From: Methylocystis echinoides
GTDB lineage: Bacteria; Pseudomonadota; Alphaproteobacteria; Rhizobiales; Beijerinckiaceae
Direction: 5' to 3'
Length of the DNA stretch: 64,000 bases
Assembly (NCBI RefSeq): GCF_040687965.1
Contig: NZ_CP156084.1
Coordinates: 3,224,501-3,288,500 of the forward strand
Of the stretch, positions 52,162 through 62,712 are shown in pieces (within the stretch, counting starts at the first letter, position 1; each line of letters begins with the position of its first letter). Both the position numbers and the translations under genes were made by a program. The notes under the pieces were generated by a model. That model had not been told where the DNA came from. It saw only the letters and a list, made by a program, of their open reading frames with translations, and made no database searches.

Positions 52162-53199
52162 ATGTCCGGACTTCGGATTGTCGCCACTGGCGCGTTGCTG
52201 CTGTTTCCCGTTCTCGCGCAGGCGGACGACTTGCGCGCCGACGCCGCCGCCGTCTTCAAGCCTATCGATCCGGCGAGCATCAACACGGTGGTGAAGAACA
52301 ACGCCATCACCCCGGCGAAGATCGAACTCGGCCACAAGCTGTTCTTCGATCCGCGCCTCTCGAAGAGCCAGATCATCAGCTGCAACAGCTGCCATAACCT
52401 CGGCACGGGCGGCGTCGACGCCGGCCCGACGTCGATCGGGCATGGCTGGGCCAAGGGTCCGCGCCGCGCGCCGACGGTGCTCAACGCCGTCTTCAACGTC
52501 GCCCAGTTTTGGGACGGCCGCGCCACCGACCTCAAGGCGCAGGCCAAGGGTCCGGTGCAAGCCGACGTCGAGATGAACAACACCCCGGCGGCGGTCGAGG
52601 CGACGCTCAAGAGCATGCCGGGCTATGTGGCGGAGTTCAAGGCCGCCTTCCCGAGCGACGCCAATCCCGTCACCTTCGACAATATGGCCAACGCCATCGA
52701 GGCCTTCGAAGCCACGCTGACGACGCCCAACTCCAAATTCGACAAGTTCCTCGCAGGCGACGCCGCCGCCCTGAACGACACGGAGAAGAAGGGCCTGCGC
52801 CTGTTCATGGACAAGGGCTGCAGCGGCTGTCACAGCGGCGTGAACGTCGGCGGCAACGGCTACTTCCCGTTCGGCGTCGCGCAGAAGCCGGACGCCGCCA
52901 TTCTTCCGGTCGCCGACCGCGGCCGCGCCAAGGTCACCAACAATGACGCCGACGCCTTCGTGTTCCGTTCGGCTCCGCTCCGCAACGTTGCGCTGCGCGC
53001 GCCTTATTTCCACAGCGGCGCGGTGTGGACGCTCGAAGAGGCGGTCAATGTGATGGCGAAGGATCAGCTCGGCGCGACCCTGACGCCGGACGAGAACGCG
53101 GCCATCGTCGCCTTCCTGGGGTCGCTCTCGGGCGATCAGCCGAAGGTGACCTATCCGATCCTGCCGGCCCGCACCAAGGACACGCCTCGGCCGCAATAG
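52162..53199 (+). CDS. Di-heme cytochrome c peroxidase (MauG/CcpA family)
   Basis: A 345-residue periplasmic protein with a signal peptide (about 1-20, ending AQA) and two heme c sites, C74-N-S-C77-H78 and C220-S-G-C223-H224, each starting one of two domains. LGHKLFFDPRLSKSQIISC and QFWDGRATDLKAQAKGPVQ are strong family markers, and LRNVALRAPYFHSG follows in the C-terminal domain. It probably reduces hydrogen peroxide using c-type cytochromes; a MauG-like role is possible but no mau genes are seen. A terminator follows. Confidence 0.92.
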   Translation: MSGLRIVATGALLLFPVLAQADDLRADAAAVFKPIDPASINTVVKNNAITPAKIELGHKLFFDPRLSKSQIISCNSCHNLGTGGVDAGPTSIGHGWAKGPRRAPTVLNAVFNVAQFWDGRATDLKAQAKGPVQADVEMNNTPAAVEATLKSMPGYVAEFKAAFPSDANPVTFDNMANAIEAFEATLTTPNSKFDKFLAGDAAALNDTEKKGLRLFMDKGCSGCHSGVNVGGNGYFPFGVAQKPDAAILPVADRGRAKVTNNDADAFVFRSAPLRNVALRAPYFHSGAVWTLEEAVNVMAKDQLGATLTPDENAAIVAFLGSLSGDQPKVTYPILPARTKDTPRPQ

Positions 53200-53210
53200 C
53201 CATCACGAAC

Positions 53211-53246
53211 AAAGGGGCGGGTCTGGTAGGCTCGCCCTTTTCTTTT
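53211..53246 (+). terminator. Rho-independent terminator after the cytochrome c peroxidase
   Basis: GGGCGGGTC/GGCTCGCCC stem (9 bp with two G-U pairs, 5-base loop) followed by TTTTCTTTT. Confidence 0.75.
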
Positions 53247-53308
53247 GTCGCAAAAGCGCAGTCTTCGCCTGCTACGGGGCGCGTCTCGACGTGGCGGGTA
53301 GGAGGGTC

Positions 53309-54694
53309 ATGACGAAAGCATTCTCGCGGCTGCTCCTGATCATTTGCCTGCTGGGCGCGTCGGCGACGGCGCAAGCGGGCGACGCAGCTTCCGACAACCC
53401 TTTCGAGCGGATCGGGCACATCGTCGTCATCGTCGTGGAGAATCGCAGCTTCGACCACGTCTTTGGCCTCTTTCCCGGCGCCGAGGGGCTCGAGGGCGCC
53501 CGTCGCGCCAATCCTCAGATCGACCGGGACGGCCGTCCGCTTCCCTATCTTCCAGGCCTGGACACGCAGCAGGCCAACGCCCCCTTTCTGCTGGAAGGTC
53601 CGCTCGCCGGGCCGGAAAAAATCGATCCGATCCACCAGTTCTACGTCGAACAGGAGCAGATCAACGGCGGCCGAATGGATCGCTTCGTAGAGGCCTCCAA
53701 CGCTGGCGGGCTCGTGATGGGCTATCGTGACGCCAGAGGCTCACGGCAATGGCGCCTCGCCCAGGACTTCACGCTGGCCGACCATTTCTTCCACCCTGCG
53801 TTCGGGGGCTCGCTGCTCAATCATTTTTTCCTCGTCTGCGCCTGCGCGCCGCTCTATCCCAACGCGCCAGACAAGCTCGTTGCGCAGCTTGATGGAGAGG
53901 GGCGCCTCGCCCGAAAGCAGACGTCGCCGAAGAGCGCGCTGGACGGCGTTCCGCACTGGCGCAACGTCGGCAAGGTCACGCCGGACGGTTTCGCGGTCGG
54001 CACCTTCCTGCCCTTCGCGCCGCTCGCGGGCGATCAGGCGGAGGGCGAAGTCCTGCCGGCGCAAACCGCGCTGACCATCGGGGACAGGCTGAGCGAGAAG
54101 GGAATCAGCTGGGCCTGGTACGCCGGCGGCTGGGCCGACGTCGTGTCGGGGCGCAGCAAGCCGTATTCGGGTTCCGACAACTTTCAAATTCACCACCAGC
54201 CGTTCATTTATTTCCAGAATTTCGGCCCGGGGACGCGGGCGCGCGCCGAACATCTCAAGGACGAGGCGGATTTCCTGGAGGACGCCCGAAAAGGGACGCT
54301 GCCGCCGGTGTCATTCTACAAGCCGGTGGGCCGCTACAACGAACATCCGGCCTATGCGGCTTTCGACGCGGGCGACGCGCATCTGGGCGAAATCGTTGAC
54401 CAGCTCCGGGCCAGCCCGAACTGGAGCGATATGCTGATCGTCGTGGTCGCGGACGAGAATGGGGGGTTCTGGGACCACGTCGCCCCGCCGCGAATCGATC
54501 GTTTCGGGCCTGGGACGCGCGTTCCTGGGCTCCTGATTTCTCCCTTTGCGCGCAAGGGCTTCGTGGACAAGACCGTCTATGACGGAACCTCGATCCTGCG
54601 CACCATCGAGGTCCGCTTCGGCCTGGCGCCGCTCACGGCGAGAGACGCGGCGGCGGCGGATTTTCGCAACGCGCTCGAACCGCTCGGCCAATAA
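53309..54694 (+). CDS. Secreted phosphoesterase (phospholipase C/acid phosphatase AcpA family)
   Basis: A 461-residue exported enzyme with a signal peptide (about 1-23, ending AQA). The phosphoesterase-family motifs are IVVIVVENRSFDHVFGLFPG (nucleophile/metal region) and VVVADENGGFWDHVAPPRID (metal-binding Asp/His). It probably cleaves phosphate esters in the periplasm or outside; phospholipid or monoester substrates cannot be told apart. The start ATG 53309 sits close behind GGAGG; GTG 53291 is an alternative. It ends 577 bases before pmoC. Confidence 0.85.
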   Translation: MTKAFSRLLLIICLLGASATAQAGDAASDNPFERIGHIVVIVVENRSFDHVFGLFPGAEGLEGARRANPQIDRDGRPLPYLPGLDTQQANAPFLLEGPLAGPEKIDPIHQFYVEQEQINGGRMDRFVEASNAGGLVMGYRDARGSRQWRLAQDFTLADHFFHPAFGGSLLNHFFLVCACAPLYPNAPDKLVAQLDGEGRLARKQTSPKSALDGVPHWRNVGKVTPDGFAVGTFLPFAPLAGDQAEGEVLPAQTALTIGDRLSEKGISWAWYAGGWADVVSGRSKPYSGSDNFQIHHQPFIYFQNFGPGTRARAEHLKDEADFLEDARKGTLPPVSFYKPVGRYNEHPAYAAFDAGDAHLGEIVDQLRASPNWSDMLIVVVADENGGFWDHVAPPRIDRFGPGTRVPGLLISPFARKGFVDKTVYDGTSILRTIEVRFGLAPLTARDAAAADFRNALEPLGQ

Positions 54695-55271: not shown

Positions 55272-56039
55272 ATGGCTTCGACGACGAGCGCAGCTGCTGG
55301 CGCAGCTGCTGAGGTACAAATAGTCGATCTTCGCGGAATGTGGATCGGCCTTGCGGTCCTCAACATCTTCTATCTGATCGTGCGCATTTACGAGCAGGTC
55401 TACGGCTGGCGCGCTGGCCTGGATTCGTTCGCGCCGGAGTTCCAGACCTACTGGATGTCGATCCTTTGGACCGAGATCCCGCTGGAGCTGGTCTCTGGTC
55501 TGGGCCTTGCGGGCTATCTCTGGAAGACCCGCGACCGCAACGTCGACGCGGTGACGCCGCGCGAAGAGATGCGCCGCCTGGTGGTTCTGGTTCAGTGGCT
55601 TGTCGTTTACGGCATCGCCATTTACTGGGGCGCGTCGTTCTTCACGGAGCAGGACGGCACCTGGCACATGACGGTGATTCGCGACACGGACTTCACGCCG
55701 TCGCACATCATCGAGTTCTACATGAGCTATCCGATCTATTCGGTGATCGCGGTTGGCGCGTTCTTCTATGCGAAGACCCGCATTCCGTATTTTGCTCATG
55801 GCTACTCGCTGGCGTTCCTGATCGTCGCCATCGGCCCGTTCATGATCATCCCGAACGTTGGCCTGAACGAGTGGGGCCACACCTTCTGGTTCATGGAAGA
55901 GCTGTTCGTCGCTCCGCTGCACTGGGGCTTCGTGTTCTTCGGCTGGATGGCCCTGGGCGTCTTCGGCGTCGTGCTGCAGATCCTGATGCGCATTCATGCG
56001 CTGATCGGCAAGGAAGGCGTCGCCCTCCTGACCGAGTAA
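55272..56039 (+). CDS. pmoC: Particulate methane monooxygenase subunit C
   Basis: Integral membrane subunit of the copper enzyme that oxidises methane to methanol. The 255-residue protein has about six membrane helices. The conserved metal ligands are present as D128, H132 and H145 in EQDGTWHMTVIRDTDFTPSH, corresponding to Asp156/His160/His173 of Methylococcus PmoC. The start ATG 55272 follows GGAGGAGTTA. It is the first gene of pmoCAB, the order found in all methanotroph operons. High similarity to type II methanotroph PmoC is inferred from recall. Confidence 0.98.
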   Translation: MASTTSAAAGAAAEVQIVDLRGMWIGLAVLNIFYLIVRIYEQVYGWRAGLDSFAPEFQTYWMSILWTEIPLELVSGLGLAGYLWKTRDRNVDAVTPREEMRRLVVLVQWLVVYGIAIYWGASFFTEQDGTWHMTVIRDTDFTPSHIIEFYMSYPIYSVIAVGAFFYAKTRIPYFAHGYSLAFLIVAIGPFMIIPNVGLNEWGHTFWFMEELFVAPLHWGFVFFGWMALGVFGVVLQILMRIHALIGKEGVALLTE

Positions 56040-56370: not shown

Positions 56371-57129
56371 ATGTCACAATCGAAAAGCGGGGGGGCGGTC
56401 GGTCCGTTCAACTCCGTCGCCGAGGCGGCGGGTTGCGTTCAGACGACGGACTGGATGCTTCTTGTGTTGCTGTTTTTCGCCGTTCTGGGCGGCTATCACG
56501 TCCACTTCATGCTGACGGCGGGCGACTGGGACTTCTGGGTTGACTGGAAGGATCGTCGTATGTGGCCGACGGTCGTGCCGATTCTGGGCGTGACCTTCTG
56601 CGCGGCGTCGCAGGCTTTCTGGTGGGTGAACTTCCGTCTGCCGTTCGGCGCGGTGTTCGCGGCTCTCGGCCTCCTGATTGGCGAGTGGATCAACCGCTAC
56701 GTCAACTTCTGGGGCTGGACCTACTTCCCGATCAGCCTTGTGTTCCCGTCCGCTCTGATCGTTCCGGCGATCTGGCTCGACGTGATCCTGCTTCTGTCGG
56801 GCTCCTATGTGATCACGGCGGTTGTCGGTTCGCTGGGCTGGGGTCTGCTGTTCTACCCGAACAACTGGCCGGCGATCGCCGCCTTCCACCAGGCGACCGA
56901 GCAGCATGGTCAGCTGATGACCCTCGCCGACCTGATCGGCCTCCACTACGTCCGCACGTCGATGCCGGAATACATCCGCATGGTCGAGCGCGGCACGCTG
57001 CGCACGTTCGGTAAGGACGTTGTGCCGGTTGCGGCGTTCTTCTCGGGCTTCGTCTCGATGATGGTGTATTTCCTGTGGTGGTTCATGGGTCGCTGGTATT
57101 CCACGACCAAGGTCATCGACTCCATCTAA
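56371..57129 (+). CDS. pmoA: Particulate methane monooxygenase subunit A
   Basis: The 252-residue membrane subunit used as the standard methanotroph marker. It begins MSQSKSGGAVGPFNSVAEAA and contains the conserved GDWDFWVDWKDRRMWPTVVP, PFGAVFAALGLLIGEWINRY and FPISLVFPSALIVPAIWLDV stretches, including the region targeted in pmoA surveys. The sequence is of the alphaproteobacterial (type II, pMMO1-like) kind. The start ATG 56371 has AAGGAG upstream. Confidence 0.98.
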   Translation: MSQSKSGGAVGPFNSVAEAAGCVQTTDWMLLVLLFFAVLGGYHVHFMLTAGDWDFWVDWKDRRMWPTVVPILGVTFCAASQAFWWVNFRLPFGAVFAALGLLIGEWINRYVNFWGWTYFPISLVFPSALIVPAIWLDVILLLSGSYVITAVVGSLGWGLLFYPNNWPAIAAFHQATEQHGQLMTLADLIGLHYVRTSMPEYIRMVERGTLRTFGKDVVPVAAFFSGFVSMMVYFLWWFMGRWYSTTKVIDSI

Positions 57130-57295: not shown

Positions 57296-58555
57296 ATGAA
57301 AAAGCTAGTCAAGCTCGCCGCCATTGGCGCGGCGGCTGCTGTGGCGGCGACGCTTGGAGCGGTTGCTCCGGCTTCGGCGCACGGCGAGAAGTCGCAGCAG
57401 GCGTTCCTTCGCATGCGCACGCTGAACTGGTATGACGTTCAGTGGTCGAAGACGACGGTCAACGTCAACGAGGACATGGTTCTGTCCGGCAAGGTCCACG
57501 TCTTCTCGGCGTGGCCGCAGGCGGTCGCCAATCCGCGCGTGTCGTTCCTGAACGCCGGCGAGCCCGGCCCGGTTCTGGTTCGCACGGCGCAGTTCATCGG
57601 CGAGCAGTTTGCGCCGCGTTCGGTGTCGCTGGAGATCGGCAAGGATTACGCCTTCTCGATCAACCTGCGCGGCCGTCGCGCGGGCCGTTGGCACGTCCAC
57701 GCCCAGATCAACGTTGAAGGCGGCGGTCCGATCATCGGCCCCGGCCAGTGGATTGAGATCAAGGGCGACATGAAGGACTTCACCGACCCGGTGACGCTCC
57801 TCGACGGGTCGACCATTGACCTCGAGCACTACGGCATCAGCCGCGTTTATGCGTGGCATCTGCCGTGGATGGCGGTTGGCGCCGCCTGGATCCTGTTCTG
57901 GTTCATCCGGAAGGGCATCATCGCGTCCTACGTCAAGGTCGCGGAAGGCCGTCCTGATGACGTCATCGGCGATGACGACCGTCGTATCGGCGCGATCGTT
58001 CTCGCTTTGACGATCCTGGCGACCATCGTCGGCTACGCCGTGACGAACTCGACCTTCCCGCGCACGATCCCGCTTCAGGCCGGCTTGCAGAAGCCGCTGA
58101 CGCCGATCGAGACGGAAGGCACGGCTGGCGTGGGCAAGGAGCAGGTGACGACCGAGCTGAACGGCGGCGTCTACAAGGTTCCGGGCCGTGAGCTGACGAT
58201 CAACGTGAAGGTGAAGAACGGCACGTCTCAGCCGGTGCGCCTCGGCGAATACACCGCCGCTGGCCTGCGCTTCCTGAACCCGTCGGTGTTCACCTCGAAG
58301 CCTGACTTCCCGGACTACCTGCTTGCCGACCGCGGCCTGTCGAACGACGACACGATCGCGCCCGGCGAGTCGAAGGAGATCACGGTGAAGATCCAGGACG
58401 CGCGTTGGGACATCGAGCGTCTGTCTGACCTGGCTTACGACACCGACAGCCAGATCGGCGGCCTGCTGTTCTTCTTCACGCCCGACGGCAAGCGCTTCGC
58501 GGCTGAAATCGGCGGCCCGGTGATTCCGAAGTTCGTCGCCGGCGACATGCCCTGA
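57296..58555 (+). CDS. pmoB: Particulate methane monooxygenase subunit B
   Basis: The 419-residue subunit with two periplasmic cupredoxin-like domains joined by two membrane helices (about 195-215 and 232-255). A signal peptide ends ASA, so mature PmoB begins at His29. His29 with H133 and H135 (RWHVHAQINV) forms the CuB site known from pMMO structures. The start ATG 57296 follows GGGAGGT; an in-frame upstream extension lacks conservation. A strong terminator follows. Confidence 0.98.
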   Translation: MKKLVKLAAIGAAAAVAATLGAVAPASAHGEKSQQAFLRMRTLNWYDVQWSKTTVNVNEDMVLSGKVHVFSAWPQAVANPRVSFLNAGEPGPVLVRTAQFIGEQFAPRSVSLEIGKDYAFSINLRGRRAGRWHVHAQINVEGGGPIIGPGQWIEIKGDMKDFTDPVTLLDGSTIDLEHYGISRVYAWHLPWMAVGAAWILFWFIRKGIIASYVKVAEGRPDDVIGDDDRRIGAIVLALTILATIVGYAVTNSTFPRTIPLQAGLQKPLTPIETEGTAGVGKEQVTTELNGGVYKVPGRELTINVKVKNGTSQPVRLGEYTAAGLRFLNPSVFTSKPDFPDYLLADRGLSNDDTIAPGESKEITVKIQDARWDIERLSDLAYDTDSQIGGLLFFFTPDGKRFAAEIGGPVIPKFVAGDMP

Positions 58556-58583
58556 GCGAACAACGATCGCTAACCTAAAAAAG

Positions 58584-58615
58584 CCGGCCGGATCGAAAGA
58601 TCCGGCCGGTTTCGC
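58584..58615 (+). terminator. Terminator of the pmoCAB operon
   Basis: An 11-bp perfect stem CCGGCCGGATC/GATCCGGCCGG with a GAAA tetraloop, extended by A-T pairs and followed by TTTCGCTTT, 28 bases after the pmoB stop. Confidence 0.85.
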
Positions 58616-58913
58616 TTTGGCCCCACGGGCAGGCGCTGTCTTGCTCAATATCAATCGGTGCGTCCTTTAGACGCAAATTGCGTCAAGGCTTTTTGCTCGC
58701 GCCAACGCCTGTTTTGGATGCAAAGTAGCGCCCGGAGATCGACGACCTCGCGCATGCGAGGTCTCGCTGAAAAGGGACGCTTAGGCTAAGGAAGACTGCG
58801 AGCGGCGCGGTCTGGTGCGCCGGGGATTGGCCGCCTGCCGGTATGGCCCGAGCTGACGGCCAGACAAAACTGCGTCGGAAAAAAAGGCGCAGGGAAAGAA
58901 TCGAGGGATGGAA
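58616..58913 (+). promoter_or_regulatory. Spacer between pmoB terminator and pmoD, with palindrome
   Basis: With the terminator, about 358 bases have no gene. GACGCAA-A-TTGCGTC at 58670-58684 is a perfect 15-base inverted repeat, a candidate operator for the downstream copper genes. Since a terminator precedes it, a promoter for pmoD-copC-copD is expected here; no -35/-10 boxes are clear. Confidence 0.4.
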
Positions 58914-59531
58914 ATGATGAATTGGCGTAGCCTTGCCGCCGCCATGTTTGGCGCCGTTCTTTCGCTCAGCGTCGGTCAGCCTGCGCGGGCCGAGGGCGGC
59001 GCGGGGCCGGAAGCCATGTCCATGGGAAACATGTGCATGGTCATGTTCGGTTATGACATGATCCACATCACCGTCTTCCAGCCCGACAAGTCGCGCAGCG
59101 AGTATTGCAGCGAAATTCCGGCGACGGGCCGCACGATCATGGTCTTCGACATCGAGACGCCGGCTTTCCGCGATCTGCCGCTCGAACTGCGCATCATTCG
59201 CGATCCGCTGACGCCGATCACCAAGGACACGGATCTCGAACCGCTGACCGAGCTGCATCTGCCGGCCAAGAAATATACCAAGGGCACGTTCAGCCTGGAG
59301 CATAACTTCGCGAATAACGGCCACTATATCGGCCTCGTCACACTCACGCGCGAGAACGGCCAGCAGGAAACCGAGCAGTTCAAATTCATGGTCGGCGAGA
59401 CGCTTTGGGCCTGGGTGCCTCAGATCGCCGGCACGGTGCTCATCGCCGGCATGGTCTTCGTCTATTGGAAGCACACGCATCCTTCGTCGAAGAAGAAGGA
59501 GAAGGAGCCCGCCGAGCCCGTTGCGTCTTGA
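58914..59531 (+). CDS. pmoD: PmoD-like copper protein, membrane anchored
   Basis: A 205-residue protein with a signal peptide (ending ARA, near residue 26), a periplasmic domain and one C-terminal helix (about 166-185) followed by a Lys/Glu-rich tail. Potential copper ligands cluster in MSMGNMCMVMFGYDMIH and SEYC (Cys41, His51, Cys65 plus several Met). Known PmoD proteins of Methylocystis form an unusual dimeric CuA site with Cys and His ligands and occur next to copC and copD, as here. The start is ambiguous: ATG 58908, 58914 or 58917; 58914 has GAGGG six bases upstream. Confidence 0.75.
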   Translation: MMNWRSLAAAMFGAVLSLSVGQPARAEGGAGPEAMSMGNMCMVMFGYDMIHITVFQPDKSRSEYCSEIPATGRTIMVFDIETPAFRDLPLELRIIRDPLTPITKDTDLEPLTELHLPAKKYTKGTFSLEHNFANNGHYIGLVTLTRENGQQETEQFKFMVGETLWAWVPQIAGTVLIAGMVFVYWKHTHPSSKKKEKEPAEPVAS

Positions 59532-59605
59532 CGTTCGACGCAATCGAAATCATCTCGAAGACAACCAAAAAAGCAAAAGAGGCTCGGCGCCTCGGGGGAA
59601 ATGTC

Positions 59606-59995
59606 ATGAAGGGAATGGGTAGCTTGTCTCGTCGCCTTTCCGGCCTTCTAGCGGGAGGCGCGTTGGCCGTCCTCGTCGGCGCGGCGCCGGCTCTTGCGCA
59701 TTCCTTCCTTGTCGAAGCGACGCCGTCGTCGAAGGACCACGTTGCGACCTCGCCCAAGACGATCAAGCTGCGCTTCGGCGGCGGCGTCGAGCCGAAATAC
59801 TCGAAGCTGACGGTCGAGAATGCGGAGGGCAAGGTTCTTGGGGAGGGGGCGATCGGCGCCCCCGACAAGCCGCGCGAACTCTCGATGGAGTCCCCTGAAC
59901 TGGCCCCCGGGAAATATGTCGTGCGCTACCGGGTGCTGTCGACGGACGGGCACGTTGTCGAAGGCAACTACGAATTCACAGTCGATCCCAAGTAA
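59606..59995 (+). CDS. copC: Periplasmic copper-binding protein CopC
   Basis: A 129-residue protein with a signal peptide ending ALA, giving mature N-terminal His32 (AHSFLVEATPSSKDHV). Together with D114 and H116 in STDGHVVEGNYEF this gives the Cu(II) histidine-brace site of CopC. The Met-rich Cu(I) site of classical CopC is absent, the common Cu(II)-only type. The start ATG 59606 follows GGGGGAAA. It is upstream of copD in the pmo-linked copper set. Confidence 0.93.
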   Translation: MKGMGSLSRRLSGLLAGGALAVLVGAAPALAHSFLVEATPSSKDHVATSPKTIKLRFGGGVEPKYSKLTVENAEGKVLGEGAIGAPDKPRELSMESPELAPGKYVVRYRVLSTDGHVVEGNYEFTVDPK

Positions 59996-60123
59996 GGCGC
60001 GCAACCTTTGACGGCGGCGAATGGCGCCCGCGCTGACGGGCGCGCGGCTCGCCGCTACCCTTCGCGTGATCGACGGCTTTCTGTCTGAAGTGGGCGGAAA
60101 GGGCCAGGAGCGAGAACCGAACG

Positions 60124-62052
60124 ATGTATCTTTCTCTCGCATTCATTCGCTTCCTCGAAAGCCTGCCGTCGGCTTTGGCCGTCGGCTTGCTGCTGATGCC
60201 GCGTCTGATCGGCGAAGACGGCGGGCGGTTCAAAGTTCCGGTCGCAGCGGCGGCCGTGTTCCGGGCGCTGCTCGGCTTCGCGCTGCTGTATCTCATCGCG
60301 CGCGCGATCGTCCCGGCGGAACGGCCGATCGACTCCGCTCTGCTCTGGGAGTTCACATTCGGCACGAGCGTCGGCAAAGCTTGGGTGTTTACCCAGCTCG
60401 TCGCTTTTGCCTTCGCGGGGCTCGCCGTCGCACGGCTGTTCGTCGCTTCCGATCTTCTCGACCGCATTACGCTGTGGACGGGCGTCGGCGTCCTTGCCGT
60501 CGTCTCGGTCACCGGCCATGCGATCGACGACGGTCTGCCCGTTTGGACGCAGGCGAGCTTCCTTTTGCACACGGCGGCGGGTCTCACGTGGCTCGGGGGC
60601 CTTCTCGGCCTGATCTGGTGGATGTTCACCGCGCACAAGAAGCCTCCGGAAGTGGCCGCGCGGCTCGCTGAACGCTGGTCGCTGGTCGCGAAGGTCGCCG
60701 TCGGGCTCGTGGCGGTGACGGGCGTCGCCATGGCCTATGAGAACGTCGGCAGCGTTCCGAACATGCTTGCGACGCCTTATGGGCGACTGCTGACCCTGAA
60801 GCTTCTCTTGCTTTGCGCCGTGTTGCTGTGCGCGCTCGCCATCGTGCGCTACATGCACAGCCGCCCGGCGGGCGACGGCTTCAATGTCGACTGGGTCGGA
60901 AAGGTCGGTAGTCTCGAGGCGGTCTTTGGCCTCGGCCTCCTGGCGATCGCCGGTTACATTGCGGTGATCACGCCGGCCTCCCATGAAACGAATATCTACT
61001 GGCCTCTGCCCTTCCGCCTCTCCTATATCGCGACCTGGGGCCAGAAGCCGGCGTTCCCCTCGCCGATCTGGTGGTGGGCAATCGCCGCCGTTGTGCTGGC
61101 GGCCGTCGCGGCGCTGCTCTGGTGGACCCCGGCGACGCGTGAGAAACGCCTTTACGCCACGCCGGCCGTGACGATCGCCGCGCTGTTTTGTCTGGCCGTG
61201 TCCTTTTCGACGGAAGCCTACGTCGATACCTACAATGATCCGACGCAGGATTTCACGGCCGAGTCAGTTGCGCGCGGCATGGCGGCGTTTCAGGACAATT
61301 GCGTCGCCTGCCATGGTCCGATGGGCGAGGGCAACGGTCCCATGTCCAAGGACCTCAAGAACGCGCAGGGCGTGAAAGTCGACCCCGCGGACCTGACGGC
61401 GCCCCATGTCGGCACCCATACGATCGGCGACATCTTCCATTGGCTGACCTTTGGCGGCCAGAGCGGGGTCATGCCGAGCTTCAGCCATGTGCTCGACGTC
61501 GACGATCGCTGGGACATGATCAATTATCTTCTCATGCTCTCGAGCACCAATCGCTCGCGCTTCATCGCCCCGCAGGCGATGATTCAATGGCTCATCGCGC
61601 CGGATTTCGCTTTGATCGATCCGAGGGAAGAGGTCACCACTTTCTTCAAGCTGCGCGGCAAGCCGACGCTCCTTTCCTTCGCGCGCTGCACCGCGACCGG
61701 CGACGAGAAAAAGGAACTCGACGCCAGTCTTCTCAAAGCGGCCGAAGCGGCCAAAGCCGCCGGGGCGAATCATGTGACGGTCTATACCGGCGACTGCCCC
61801 GCGGCGGCCAAGGCGCGGGAAGCGCTGCACCCCGCGGCGGTGGAGAAGGCCTATTCGATCATCAACCGCTACCCGAACGTGCCCTACACGAGCGAGATCG
61901 CGCAGGCGCATTTTCTGATCGACCGCTCGGGTTATGTGCGCGCGCGCTTCAAGCAGTTCGGCGAGGACGACGGCAGCGCCACGCAACTTGCCGCACAGGC
62001 GGCGATGATGGCGCAGGAGCCCATCGTGGAGATCAACCTGCACTCGCACTAA
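60124..62052 (+). CDS. copD: CopD-cytochrome c-thioredoxin-like fusion protein
   Basis: A 642-residue fusion. Residues 1 to ~300 form the CopD membrane domain of about eight helices, with TGHAIDDG, LLHTAAGLTWLGGL and a VITPASHETN segment. Further helices follow to ~365. Residues ~378-472 are a mono-heme cytochrome c domain with C393-V-A-C-H397 and probable axial Met450 (SGVMPSF). Residues ~500-612 look like a thioredoxin fold (RGKPTLLSFARCTATGDEKK; AHFLIDRSGYVRARF) but lack C-x-x-C. CopD usually imports copper to the cytoplasm; the added heme domain suggests redox coupling (inference). Confidence 0.88.
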   Translation: MYLSLAFIRFLESLPSALAVGLLLMPRLIGEDGGRFKVPVAAAAVFRALLGFALLYLIARAIVPAERPIDSALLWEFTFGTSVGKAWVFTQLVAFAFAGLAVARLFVASDLLDRITLWTGVGVLAVVSVTGHAIDDGLPVWTQASFLLHTAAGLTWLGGLLGLIWWMFTAHKKPPEVAARLAERWSLVAKVAVGLVAVTGVAMAYENVGSVPNMLATPYGRLLTLKLLLLCAVLLCALAIVRYMHSRPAGDGFNVDWVGKVGSLEAVFGLGLLAIAGYIAVITPASHETNIYWPLPFRLSYIATWGQKPAFPSPIWWWAIAAVVLAAVAALLWWTPATREKRLYATPAVTIAALFCLAVSFSTEAYVDTYNDPTQDFTAESVARGMAAFQDNCVACHGPMGEGNGPMSKDLKNAQGVKVDPADLTAPHVGTHTIGDIFHWLTFGGQSGVMPSFSHVLDVDDRWDMINYLLMLSSTNRSRFIAPQAMIQWLIAPDFALIDPREEVTTFFKLRGKPTLLSFARCTATGDEKKELDASLLKAAEAAKAAGANHVTVYTGDCPAAAKAREALHPAAVEKAYSIINRYPNVPYTSEIAQAHFLIDRSGYVRARFKQFGEDDGSATQLAAQAAMMAQEPIVEINLHSH

Positions 62053-62068
62053 AAGCGCAGGATTTCTA

Positions 62069-62093
62069 AGCCGGCTGAGCAGCCGGCTTTTTT
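62069..62093 (+). terminator. Intrinsic terminator between copD and the PCuAC gene
   Basis: AGCCGGCT-GAGC-AGCCGGCT followed by TTTTT: a perfect 8-bp stem, tetraloop and T-run, starting 16 bases after copD and ending just before the PCuAC ribosome-binding site. It should limit transcription of the last gene. Confidence 0.85.
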
Positions 62094-62106
62094 CAGGGAG
62101 AGAAAA

Positions 62107-62712
62107 ATGGTGATCAGGCGGCGTGATCTTTTGGCGTCCGGCGGCTCATTGCTCGCCGGCGCGGCTCTCGGTTTCATTCCGGCGCGGTCGGCGCTGGCCC
62201 ATGAGTATGACGTCGGCAAGCTCAAGGTTGAGCATCCCTGGCTGCGCGCCCCCGCCGATGGCGAGAAGAACGCTTCCTTCTACGCGTTCCTGCATAACGC
62301 CGGCGATACGCCCGACAAGCTCGTCGCAGTGAAGGTCGAGAAATTCGGCAAGGCCGTCGTTCACGGCGACGCGAAAAATCTCGAGCTCGAGACGCCGGTG
62401 GTCCTGCCGCCGAAGTCGAAGGTCACCTTGGCGCCGGGCGGCGTTTATGTCGCGCTGCTCGACGCGAAAAAGCATCTCGAAATCGGCTGGGGCCTGGAAA
62501 TGACGCTCGTTTTCGAGAAGGCCGGCGAAGTCGTCGTCGACGCCGCAATCGATGCGCCGGACGCCAAGCACGCGCATGACGCCGAAGCCATGGAGCGCTG
62601 GGAGAAGGCTCACAATAAAGACACCTCCGGGCCGAAGGAAAGCGCCGGCCACGAAGCGCATCATGGCCATGAGGGCCACCACCATTCGGAGAAGCCCGAA
62701 GGCGCGAAATAG
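62107..62712 (+). CDS. PCuAC-family periplasmic copper chaperone with His-rich tail
   Basis: A 201-residue PCuAC (DUF461) protein. The N-terminus has a Tat-like motif (RRRDLL) and a hydrophobic stretch ending SALA, so the mature protein would begin His32 (HEYDVGKLKVEHPWLRAP). The usual Met/His Cu(I) ligands are missing: where typical proteins have H-x-M, this one has GGVYVALL. Methanotroph PCuAC proteins are known that bind copper by a histidine brace at the N-terminal His. The last ~45 residues form a His-rich tail (HEAHHGHEGHHH). The start ATG 62107 follows CAGGGAGAG. Confidence 0.88.
   Translation: MVIRRRDLLASGGSLLAGAALGFIPARSALAHEYDVGKLKVEHPWLRAPADGEKNASFYAFLHNAGDTPDKLVAVKVEKFGKAVVHGDAKNLELETPVVLPPKSKVTLAPGGVYVALLDAKKHLEIGWGLEMTLVFEKAGEVVVDAAIDAPDAKHAHDAEAMERWEKAHNKDTSGPKESAGHEAHHGHEGHHHSEKPEGAK

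Follow-up and report, generated by a model that had tools for sequence, protein, structure and literature searches.

Gene content of the locus

The window, that is, the whole stretch of 64,000 nucleotides of Methylocystis echinoides DNA that was analysed, carries on its forward strand the genes pmoC, pmoA, pmoB, pmoD, copC, copD and a PCuAC copper chaperone gene, in this order (Table 1). The copD gene encodes a fusion protein and is separated from its two neighbours by 128 and 54 bases. The arrangement pmoCAB-pmoD-copC-copD-pCuAC is known as an extended operon in Methylosinus/Methylocystis and in ammonia-oxidising bacteria (AOB), where PmoD is a CuA protein whose Cx7MxHxnC motif has been linked to the CuA site (PMC6189053). 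The genome of the window (G000, 4.35 Mb in 4 contigs) has a second pmoCAB, all three proteins of which are identical, and a look at the 19 kb surrounding it revealed none of the extra operon genes.

Judged by eye, the mature proteins PmoB, CopC and PCuAC (window 57296-62712) start with HGEKS, HSFLV and HEYDV respectively, the histidine following an Ala. An N-terminal histidine after processing is a feature of histidine-brace copper proteins.

Table 1. Features of the copD fusion gene and its operon. Positions are those of the window unless a locus is named.
Feature	Position	Strand	Basis or remark
pmoC (PF04896)	55272..56039	+	Pfam
pmoA (PF02461)	56371..57129	+	start taken as the first ATG in the conserved part of the frame
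pmoB (PF04744)	57296..58555	+	Pfam
pmoD	58908..59531	+	carries Cx7MxHxnC motif
copC (PF04234)	59606..59995	+	mature N-terminus begins with His (by eye)
copD fusion gene: CopD, cytochrome c, putative thioredoxin-fold domain and C-terminal HSH, 642 aa	60124..62052	+	
Membrane part, residues 1-361, about ten TM helices	60124..61206	+	hydropathy
His132 and His149	60517..60570	+	predicted periplasmic side; rows of A1, A2 and distant CopD
His287	60982..60984	+	predicted periplasmic loop after TM8
Cytochrome c domain, residues about 371-478	61234..61557	+	Pfam
Haem-attachment motif C393-V-A-C-H397	61300..61314	+	sequence
Met450, candidate axial haem ligand	61471..61473	+	alignments A1, A2
Putative thioredoxin-fold (AhpC/TSA/ResA-like) domain without CxxC	61597..61983	+	profile matches
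Cys522 (near CxxC site) and Cys558	61687..61797	+	only two Cys of the third domain
C-terminal tail His640-Ser-His642	62041..62049	+	conserved across lineages
PCuAC copper chaperone (PF04314)	62107..62712	+	C-terminus His-rich
Diverged CopD relatives of G005 and G047	L173 7896-10183; L174 7569-9449		tail, no CxxCH

Integrity and conservation of the copD fusion gene

The reading frame runs uninterrupted from ATG to stop over 642 codons. The preliminary description had left room for the fusion being an assembly error or missing from close relatives, and this concern can be set aside: more than 100 homologues among the best 120 of 225 span the whole query, some of them on megabase contigs (the other sets of homologues used were the best 120 of 332 and 68 of 68). 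Furthermore, all three parts of the gene are under purifying selection, with dN of 0.02-0.04 against dS of 0.6-1.0 for the nearest relative and dN/dS of about 0.03-0.07 against L003, and the three-part architecture persists at 23-25% identity. An architecture kept at such a distance, together with the selection on all three parts, means that the fusion is more than chance. A mis-assembly or chance fusion could be suspected from the contigs of several relatives, which end directly upstream of the copD fusion, probably because pmoCAB is repeated; against the full-length homologues and the dN/dS values, this explanation is practically negligible. The copD fusion gene is real, conserved and selected.

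Automatic annotation has actually picked up the domains, as several JGI database names for homologues list parts of the architecture. In a plasmid search none of the 8 records covered 80% of the query, and all of them matched in or near the cytochrome.

The domain search proposed in the preliminary description placed CopD (PF05425, residues 180-277, 51.0 bits, cut-off 32.1) and Cytochrom_C (PF00034, residues 382-472, 46.6 bits, cut-off 21.3) above their Pfam cut-offs, whereas AhpC-TSA (PF00578, residues 492-607, 16.1 bits, cut-off 26) stayed below for the window protein alone.

The CopD membrane part

The CopD profile PF05425 was matched by all 19 members of A2 (E <= 0.01). The hydropathy of the relative L089 gives exactly ten TM helices; a hydropathy flag at residues 480-498 and one split helix were taken as false. 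From the alternation of short loops rich in Lys/Arg, both the cytochrome and the third domain are predicted to be periplasmic. Attachment of haem c demands a periplasmic location.

Three histidines, His132, His149 and His287, are all placed at the predicted periplasmic face. The first two occur in 128/128 rows of A1 and in 19/19 of A2, and a comparison with distant CopD found them in 16/16 fused rows as well as in all 18 distant rows, which comprise 16 unfused CopD and two diverged relatives (L034, L035); this pair as a criterion for CopD was derived in the present analysis, not from the literature. His287 occurs in 127 of the 128 rows of A1 and in 18 of the 19 of A2, and in only 1/16 unfused CopD, and therefore, as far as these alignments indicate, it goes with the fusion.

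Compared with CopD/PcoD, the window protein is alike in its PF05425 match above the cut-off, its His132 and His149 and its copC partner. However, it has two extra TM helices, the cytochrome c and the putative thioredoxin-fold domain, and at 77.7 bits it stays under the cut-off (195 bits) of the NCBIfam copper_CopD equivalog NF033808. YcnJ of Bacillus subtilis, a CopC-CopD-YtkA fusion, likewise combines a copper-linked CopD with a C-terminal extracytoplasmic domain, but what PMC8424229 says of it in the part consulted names neither a haem domain nor a thioredoxin fold, and CopC, which is fused in YcnJ, is separate in the window.

The cytochrome c domain

A haem site C-V-A-C-H with a candidate axial Met had been proposed to follow the CopD region, and both are found, the former at residues 393-397 and the latter as Met450, which is invariant in A1 (128/128 rows) and A2 (19/19 rows). 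Together with the Pfam match, CxxCH and the axial Met are the sequence features of a class I cytochrome c.

One fusion protein looked different by eye: in that of G978 (L117 1498-3501) the cytochrome domain lacks the MP of the axial-Met site, and haem ligation may differ there.

The putative thioredoxin-fold domain

The PF00578 profile was matched by 18 of 22 third domains at E <= 0.1 and, when whole proteins were searched, by 7 of 19 at E <= 0.01. In a profile of 164 positions built from 22 C-terminal domains, positions 1-93 matched ResA (E 1.6e-8) and positions 1-124 matched the peroxiredoxin Rv2238c (E 5e-8), these being the best matches among solved structures; a search with the single sequence gave a weak match to Rv2238c (E 0.02). 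A thioredoxin fold is thus supported at the profile level, in agreement with the preliminary description, which had also noticed that C-x-x-C is missing: the window protein has two Cys in this domain and no CxxC. Here the domain differs from ResA and the AhpE-type Rv2238c, and many lineages have no Cys at all.

Regarding the two Cys, Cys522 lies near the position of the first Cys of CxxC and Cys558 36 residues further on. We surveyed the 232 alpha-type sequences of at least 610 aa (out of 244): 228 have both Cys (227 of these with a His before the FLID strand, one without), 3 have neither and 1 has only the second. The three sequences without both are of the g40 type, and the Cys558 column shifts by one or two in g40 rows. 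No Cys was found in the third domain of any of 51 ammonia-oxidiser sequences, and several proteins of the third lineage have either none or two elsewhere in the domain. Because the ammonia-oxidiser domains have no Cys, thiol chemistry cannot be the function shared by all lineages, and we rejected it as such; neither CxxC nor a peroxidatic Cys was recognised as in a thiol-disulfide oxidoreductase or peroxiredoxin, although the alpha lineage retains a single Cys, Cys522, close to the site. On the fold model both Cys would end adjacent strands, and in the alpha lineage they may form a disulfide or a metal pair. His596 was also considered as an invariant residue and discarded: it is found in 128/128 rows of A1, but its column in A2 is His in only 6/19, other rows having a His two or three residues before it and P0123 none.

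The SCO copper chaperones have a thioredoxin fold, are tethered to the membrane and deliver copper to a membrane oxidase; their copper site is CxxxC plus a His. The window protein would be alike in fold and tether, and its Cys/Cys/His could echo the SCO site. Nevertheless, read directly from the sequence, there is no CxxxC: the second Cys lies 36 residues after the first, and ammonia oxidisers lack both. SCO did not appear among the 60 of 78 listed PDB matches of the third-domain profile.

The C-terminal histidine tail

The protein ends in His-Ser-His, which the preliminary description had not mentioned. Across the lineages aligned, this C-terminal His-x-His tail is the most conserved part of the third domain. 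We scored the tail as H-x(0-2)-H, tolerating one further residue after it, in sequences of at least 600 aa. It was present in 119/119 full-length sequences of one set (121 in total, 2 shorter ones dropped), in 111/114 of another (123 in total, 9 shorter ones dropped; strict HxH in 45) and in 61/62 of a third. Two of the three tail-less sequences of the second set end inside the domain and one ends DVHR, and the single miss of the third set also ends inside the domain. For comparison, the pattern occurs in 26 of 2648 other ORFs of the fetched loci when all frames are counted, which gives a rough background. The tail also outlives both the Cys pair and the haem motif, since the relatives of G005 and G047 without CxxCH end GHGH and GHNH.

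The ammonia oxidisers are mixed in this respect, with the tail in 29 of 51 sequences (a selection from the g169 matches plus L089/L090). On a tree of 91 rows the tail requires two changes, against 19.8 with shuffled labels (0/500 as low). One change falls on a clade of 21 ammonia-oxidiser rows (support 97), which includes 9 of the 10 amo-operon copies checked for position; the other is in one row only. Those nine copies are without the tail and the tenth, in G633, retains it; the ten exclude L099, whose amoB sits off that contig. Therefore the tail is not needed in those copies. The tail is a small mutational target for testing, and the paralogues of ammonia oxidisers, with an amo-operon copy mostly without the tail and a tailed copy elsewhere, offer a natural experiment.

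Co-occurrence with CuMMO

The order CuMMO-CAB, pmoD, copC and copD fusion was found in three lineages: in the window, in G302 with amoCAB (L089) and in the gammaproteobacterial G851 (L129). Our survey of co-occurrence with CuMMO (pMMO or AMO) covered Pseudomonadota; among the 68 of 68 homologues of one set there are also proteins filed under Methylomirabilota, Rokuibacteriota and Sinimarinibacterium.

Among the 199 genomes drawn from the family of the window, 22 have a full-length, CxxCH-bearing fusion and 20 have pmoB (PF04744), and all 20 are among the 22. In the two remaining holders (G057 and G151) the gene is close to a contig end, so that an assembly gap may account for the absence of pmoB. 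In the genus g40 the fusion occurs in 9/10 PF04744-positive against 0/5 negative genomes; G201 has pmoB without the fusion, and the pmoB match of G202 is a piece of 36 residues. Five of these nine holders were examined, and in them the fusion lies in a copC-copD pair apart from pmoCAB. In G185 of this genus, a lone pmoC, pmoD and a PCuAC gene were seen 3-6 kb beyond the copC-copD pair.

The genus g169, which we regard as ammonia oxidisers because of its amoCAB copies and its operon, has a fusion match in 59/61 genomes, including all 40 that are positive for PF04744 (amoB); G602 has a partial ORF only. In 10 of the 12 genomes with both genes on one long contig, amoB and a copy of the fusion share a strand and lie 2.1-4.2 kb apart. 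G608 of this genus (3.78 Mb) has three amoB and two copies of the fusion; the nearest amoB is 13 kb away from one copy and 721 kb from the other.

In the draw from the phylum (398 genomes), the three genomes with PF04744 are the same three that have a near full-length match, at most three candidates per genome being scored at E <= 1e-10, so that diverged relatives may be missed. The class of G302, which is gammaproteobacterial, gave 10 genomes with PF04744 among the 369 drawn. The fusion was found in three of them (G302, G851 and G978) and was absent from the other 7/10; since G302 was the known centre of this draw, the fusion occurs in 2 of the other 9. The protein of G851 is filed under Gammaproteobacteria and follows the order CuMMO-pmoD-copC-copD, and the fusion of G978 lies in a copC-copD pair on a contig other than that of the CuMMO.

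These results show that the haem-competent three-domain form tracks CuMMO in the genomes searched. The architecture, which had been presented as the most unusual of the operon, is not special to the operon of the window, as it occurs in genomes with amo too; that both amo operons of ammonia oxidisers and a CuMMO operon of a gammaproteobacterium contain it is new.

A second pmoD-copC-copD-PCuAC set was observed in G105 (L048 2893-6750), with its copD fusion split into two ORFs, and no pmoCAB was found near it in the 14 kb fetched.

Related modules in genomes without CuMMO

Two PF04744-negative genomes, G005 and G047, have a diverged CopD relative with the tail and without CxxCH. In both cases it belongs to a copC-copD pair (the copC of G047 recognised by eye) that adjoins genes for an ABC permease and for a binding protein of the NMT1 type. 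The alignment of the two CopD proteins to the query continues past the CopD part as far as residues 468 and 407, respectively. Pfam matched no cytochrome c or AhpC-TSA after CopD; it is this alignment that points to a cytochrome-like stretch, and the third part was judged by eye. Because of this pair we dropped the strict claim that the gene occurs only with CuMMO. Moreover, the shorter proteins encoded by three genomes of the phylum (G521, G572 and G581) contain a cytochrome c but no CopD, and a C-terminal stretch of them can be aligned with the fusion. Related modules therefore exist without CuMMO.

L091, L092 and L093 encode proteins of 380-449 aa that have a cytochrome c, lack CopD and carry an alignable C-terminal stretch whose end is GGFVH or GGFIH; in L092 an ABC permease gene lies upstream.

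Earlier reports on CopD and copCD

The window protein has the position of the CopD reported in the extended pmo/amo operon and in AOB genome papers, with copCD downstream of amoCAB; in the parts consulted it is called CopD only. PMC6189053 names it simply CopD, and the words 'heme', 'thioredoxin' and 'fused' are absent from its main text. In PMC4714114, PMC10472526 and PMC13374858, copC/copD or copCD are placed at amo, and neither these papers nor PMC3764937 mention further domains in the parts consulted. A CopD-cytochrome c-thioredoxin fusion was not found described in the literature searched.

Possible function

The reading that we prefer, with a probability of about one half, is that the fusion would be a redox protein that handles copper, anchored in the membrane and facing the periplasm, with CuMMO as its main client. 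Cu(II) held by the periplasmic CopC would pass to the cluster of periplasmic histidines in CopD (His132, His149 and His287). The tethered cytochrome c would give an electron to the copper, or take one from it, and so set the Cu(I)/Cu(II) state, the thioredoxin-fold domain would serve as a scaffold and not as a thiol enzyme, and the C-terminal His-x-His tail would bring the copper to PCuAC/PmoD or directly to the monooxygenase. The gene order shared by three lineages, the co-occurrence with CuMMO, the neighbouring genes for copper proteins, the retention of His132/His149 throughout, the predicted periplasmic cytochrome, the conserved tail and the Cys-free third domains of the 51 ammonia-oxidiser sequences speak for it. 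On the other hand, CuMMO genomes lacking the fusion (7/10 in the gammaproteobacterial class, and G201), the G005/G047 pair, by which the arrangement is not exclusive to CuMMO, and the loss of the tail in 9/10 amo-operon copies speak against it. So do two reports: copC/copD are missing downstream of amo in strain Is79 (PMC3764937), and a copCD mutant of OB3b, whose copD would be the fusion, showed little phenotype, its proteins being apparently outside the copper switch and seemingly not critical for copper uptake (review PMC7558416).

The preliminary description had suggested redox chemistry coupled to copper passage. Redox chemistry with copper handling remains the most economical reading, and passage into the cytoplasm is weakened by the OB3b mutant (PMC7558416). 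A plain CopD importer to the cytoplasm, with periplasmic domains that first reduce Cu(II) to Cu(I), comes near to that proposal; CopD-domain proteins have been suggested as copper importers (PMC8424229). The conserved His pair and the copC gene directly before it would also fit. Yet the copper sites of CuMMO are in the periplasm or the membrane, so that import would leave the CuMMO link unexplained, and with the mutant result we consider it unlikely. Somewhat less likely still is an electron carrier, in which the cytochrome c would pass electrons from the quinol/cytochrome pool to pMMO/AMO and CopD would be mainly an anchor. The association with CuMMO, which holds even when the genes are unlinked, and the predicted periplasmic cytochrome are consistent with it, and PMC6189053 notes that unidentified components may supply electrons and protons; however, the 7/10 class genomes do without the fusion, the neighbours are copper-trafficking genes, the tail and the CopD histidines would have no explanation, and CopD makes up 0.02-0.03% of two AOB proteomes and is not expressed in a third (PMC5960693), which is low for a stoichiometric donor.

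A protection protein, detoxifying copper or peroxide stress near the monooxygenase by peroxiredoxin- or thiol-type chemistry, would agree with the AhpC/TSA/ResA fold group, with the Cys pair kept in nearly all alpha-type sequences and with the two Cys found elsewhere in some third-lineage proteins. It is nevertheless improbable, given the missing CxxC, the Cys-free domains of all 51 ammonia-oxidiser sequences and the three g40-type sequences without both Cys. Copper redox handling for CuMMO is thus the best-supported reading, with electron supply and plain import as live rivals.

More specifically, and only tentatively, we suggest a dedicated CuMMO metalloreductase-chaperone common to methane and ammonia oxidisers, in which the cytochrome would set the redox state of copper and the free C-terminal His-x-His would carry it. 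If this is true, the C-terminal hand-over site mirrors the N-terminal histidines of CopC, PCuAC and PmoB of the same operon. It is an open question how copper and electrons reach pMMO/AMO and why activity is lost on purification (PMC6189053), and a predicted haem protein encoded with both pMMO and AMO is a concrete, testable candidate.

Genes upstream of pmoC

A MauG/MbnH-type di-haem enzyme and an acid phosphatase are encoded upstream of pmoC (window 52162-54694), the former exceeding the Pfam cut-off and staying under the NCBIfam cut-offs. Homologues also lie upstream of pmoC in L047 (G146).
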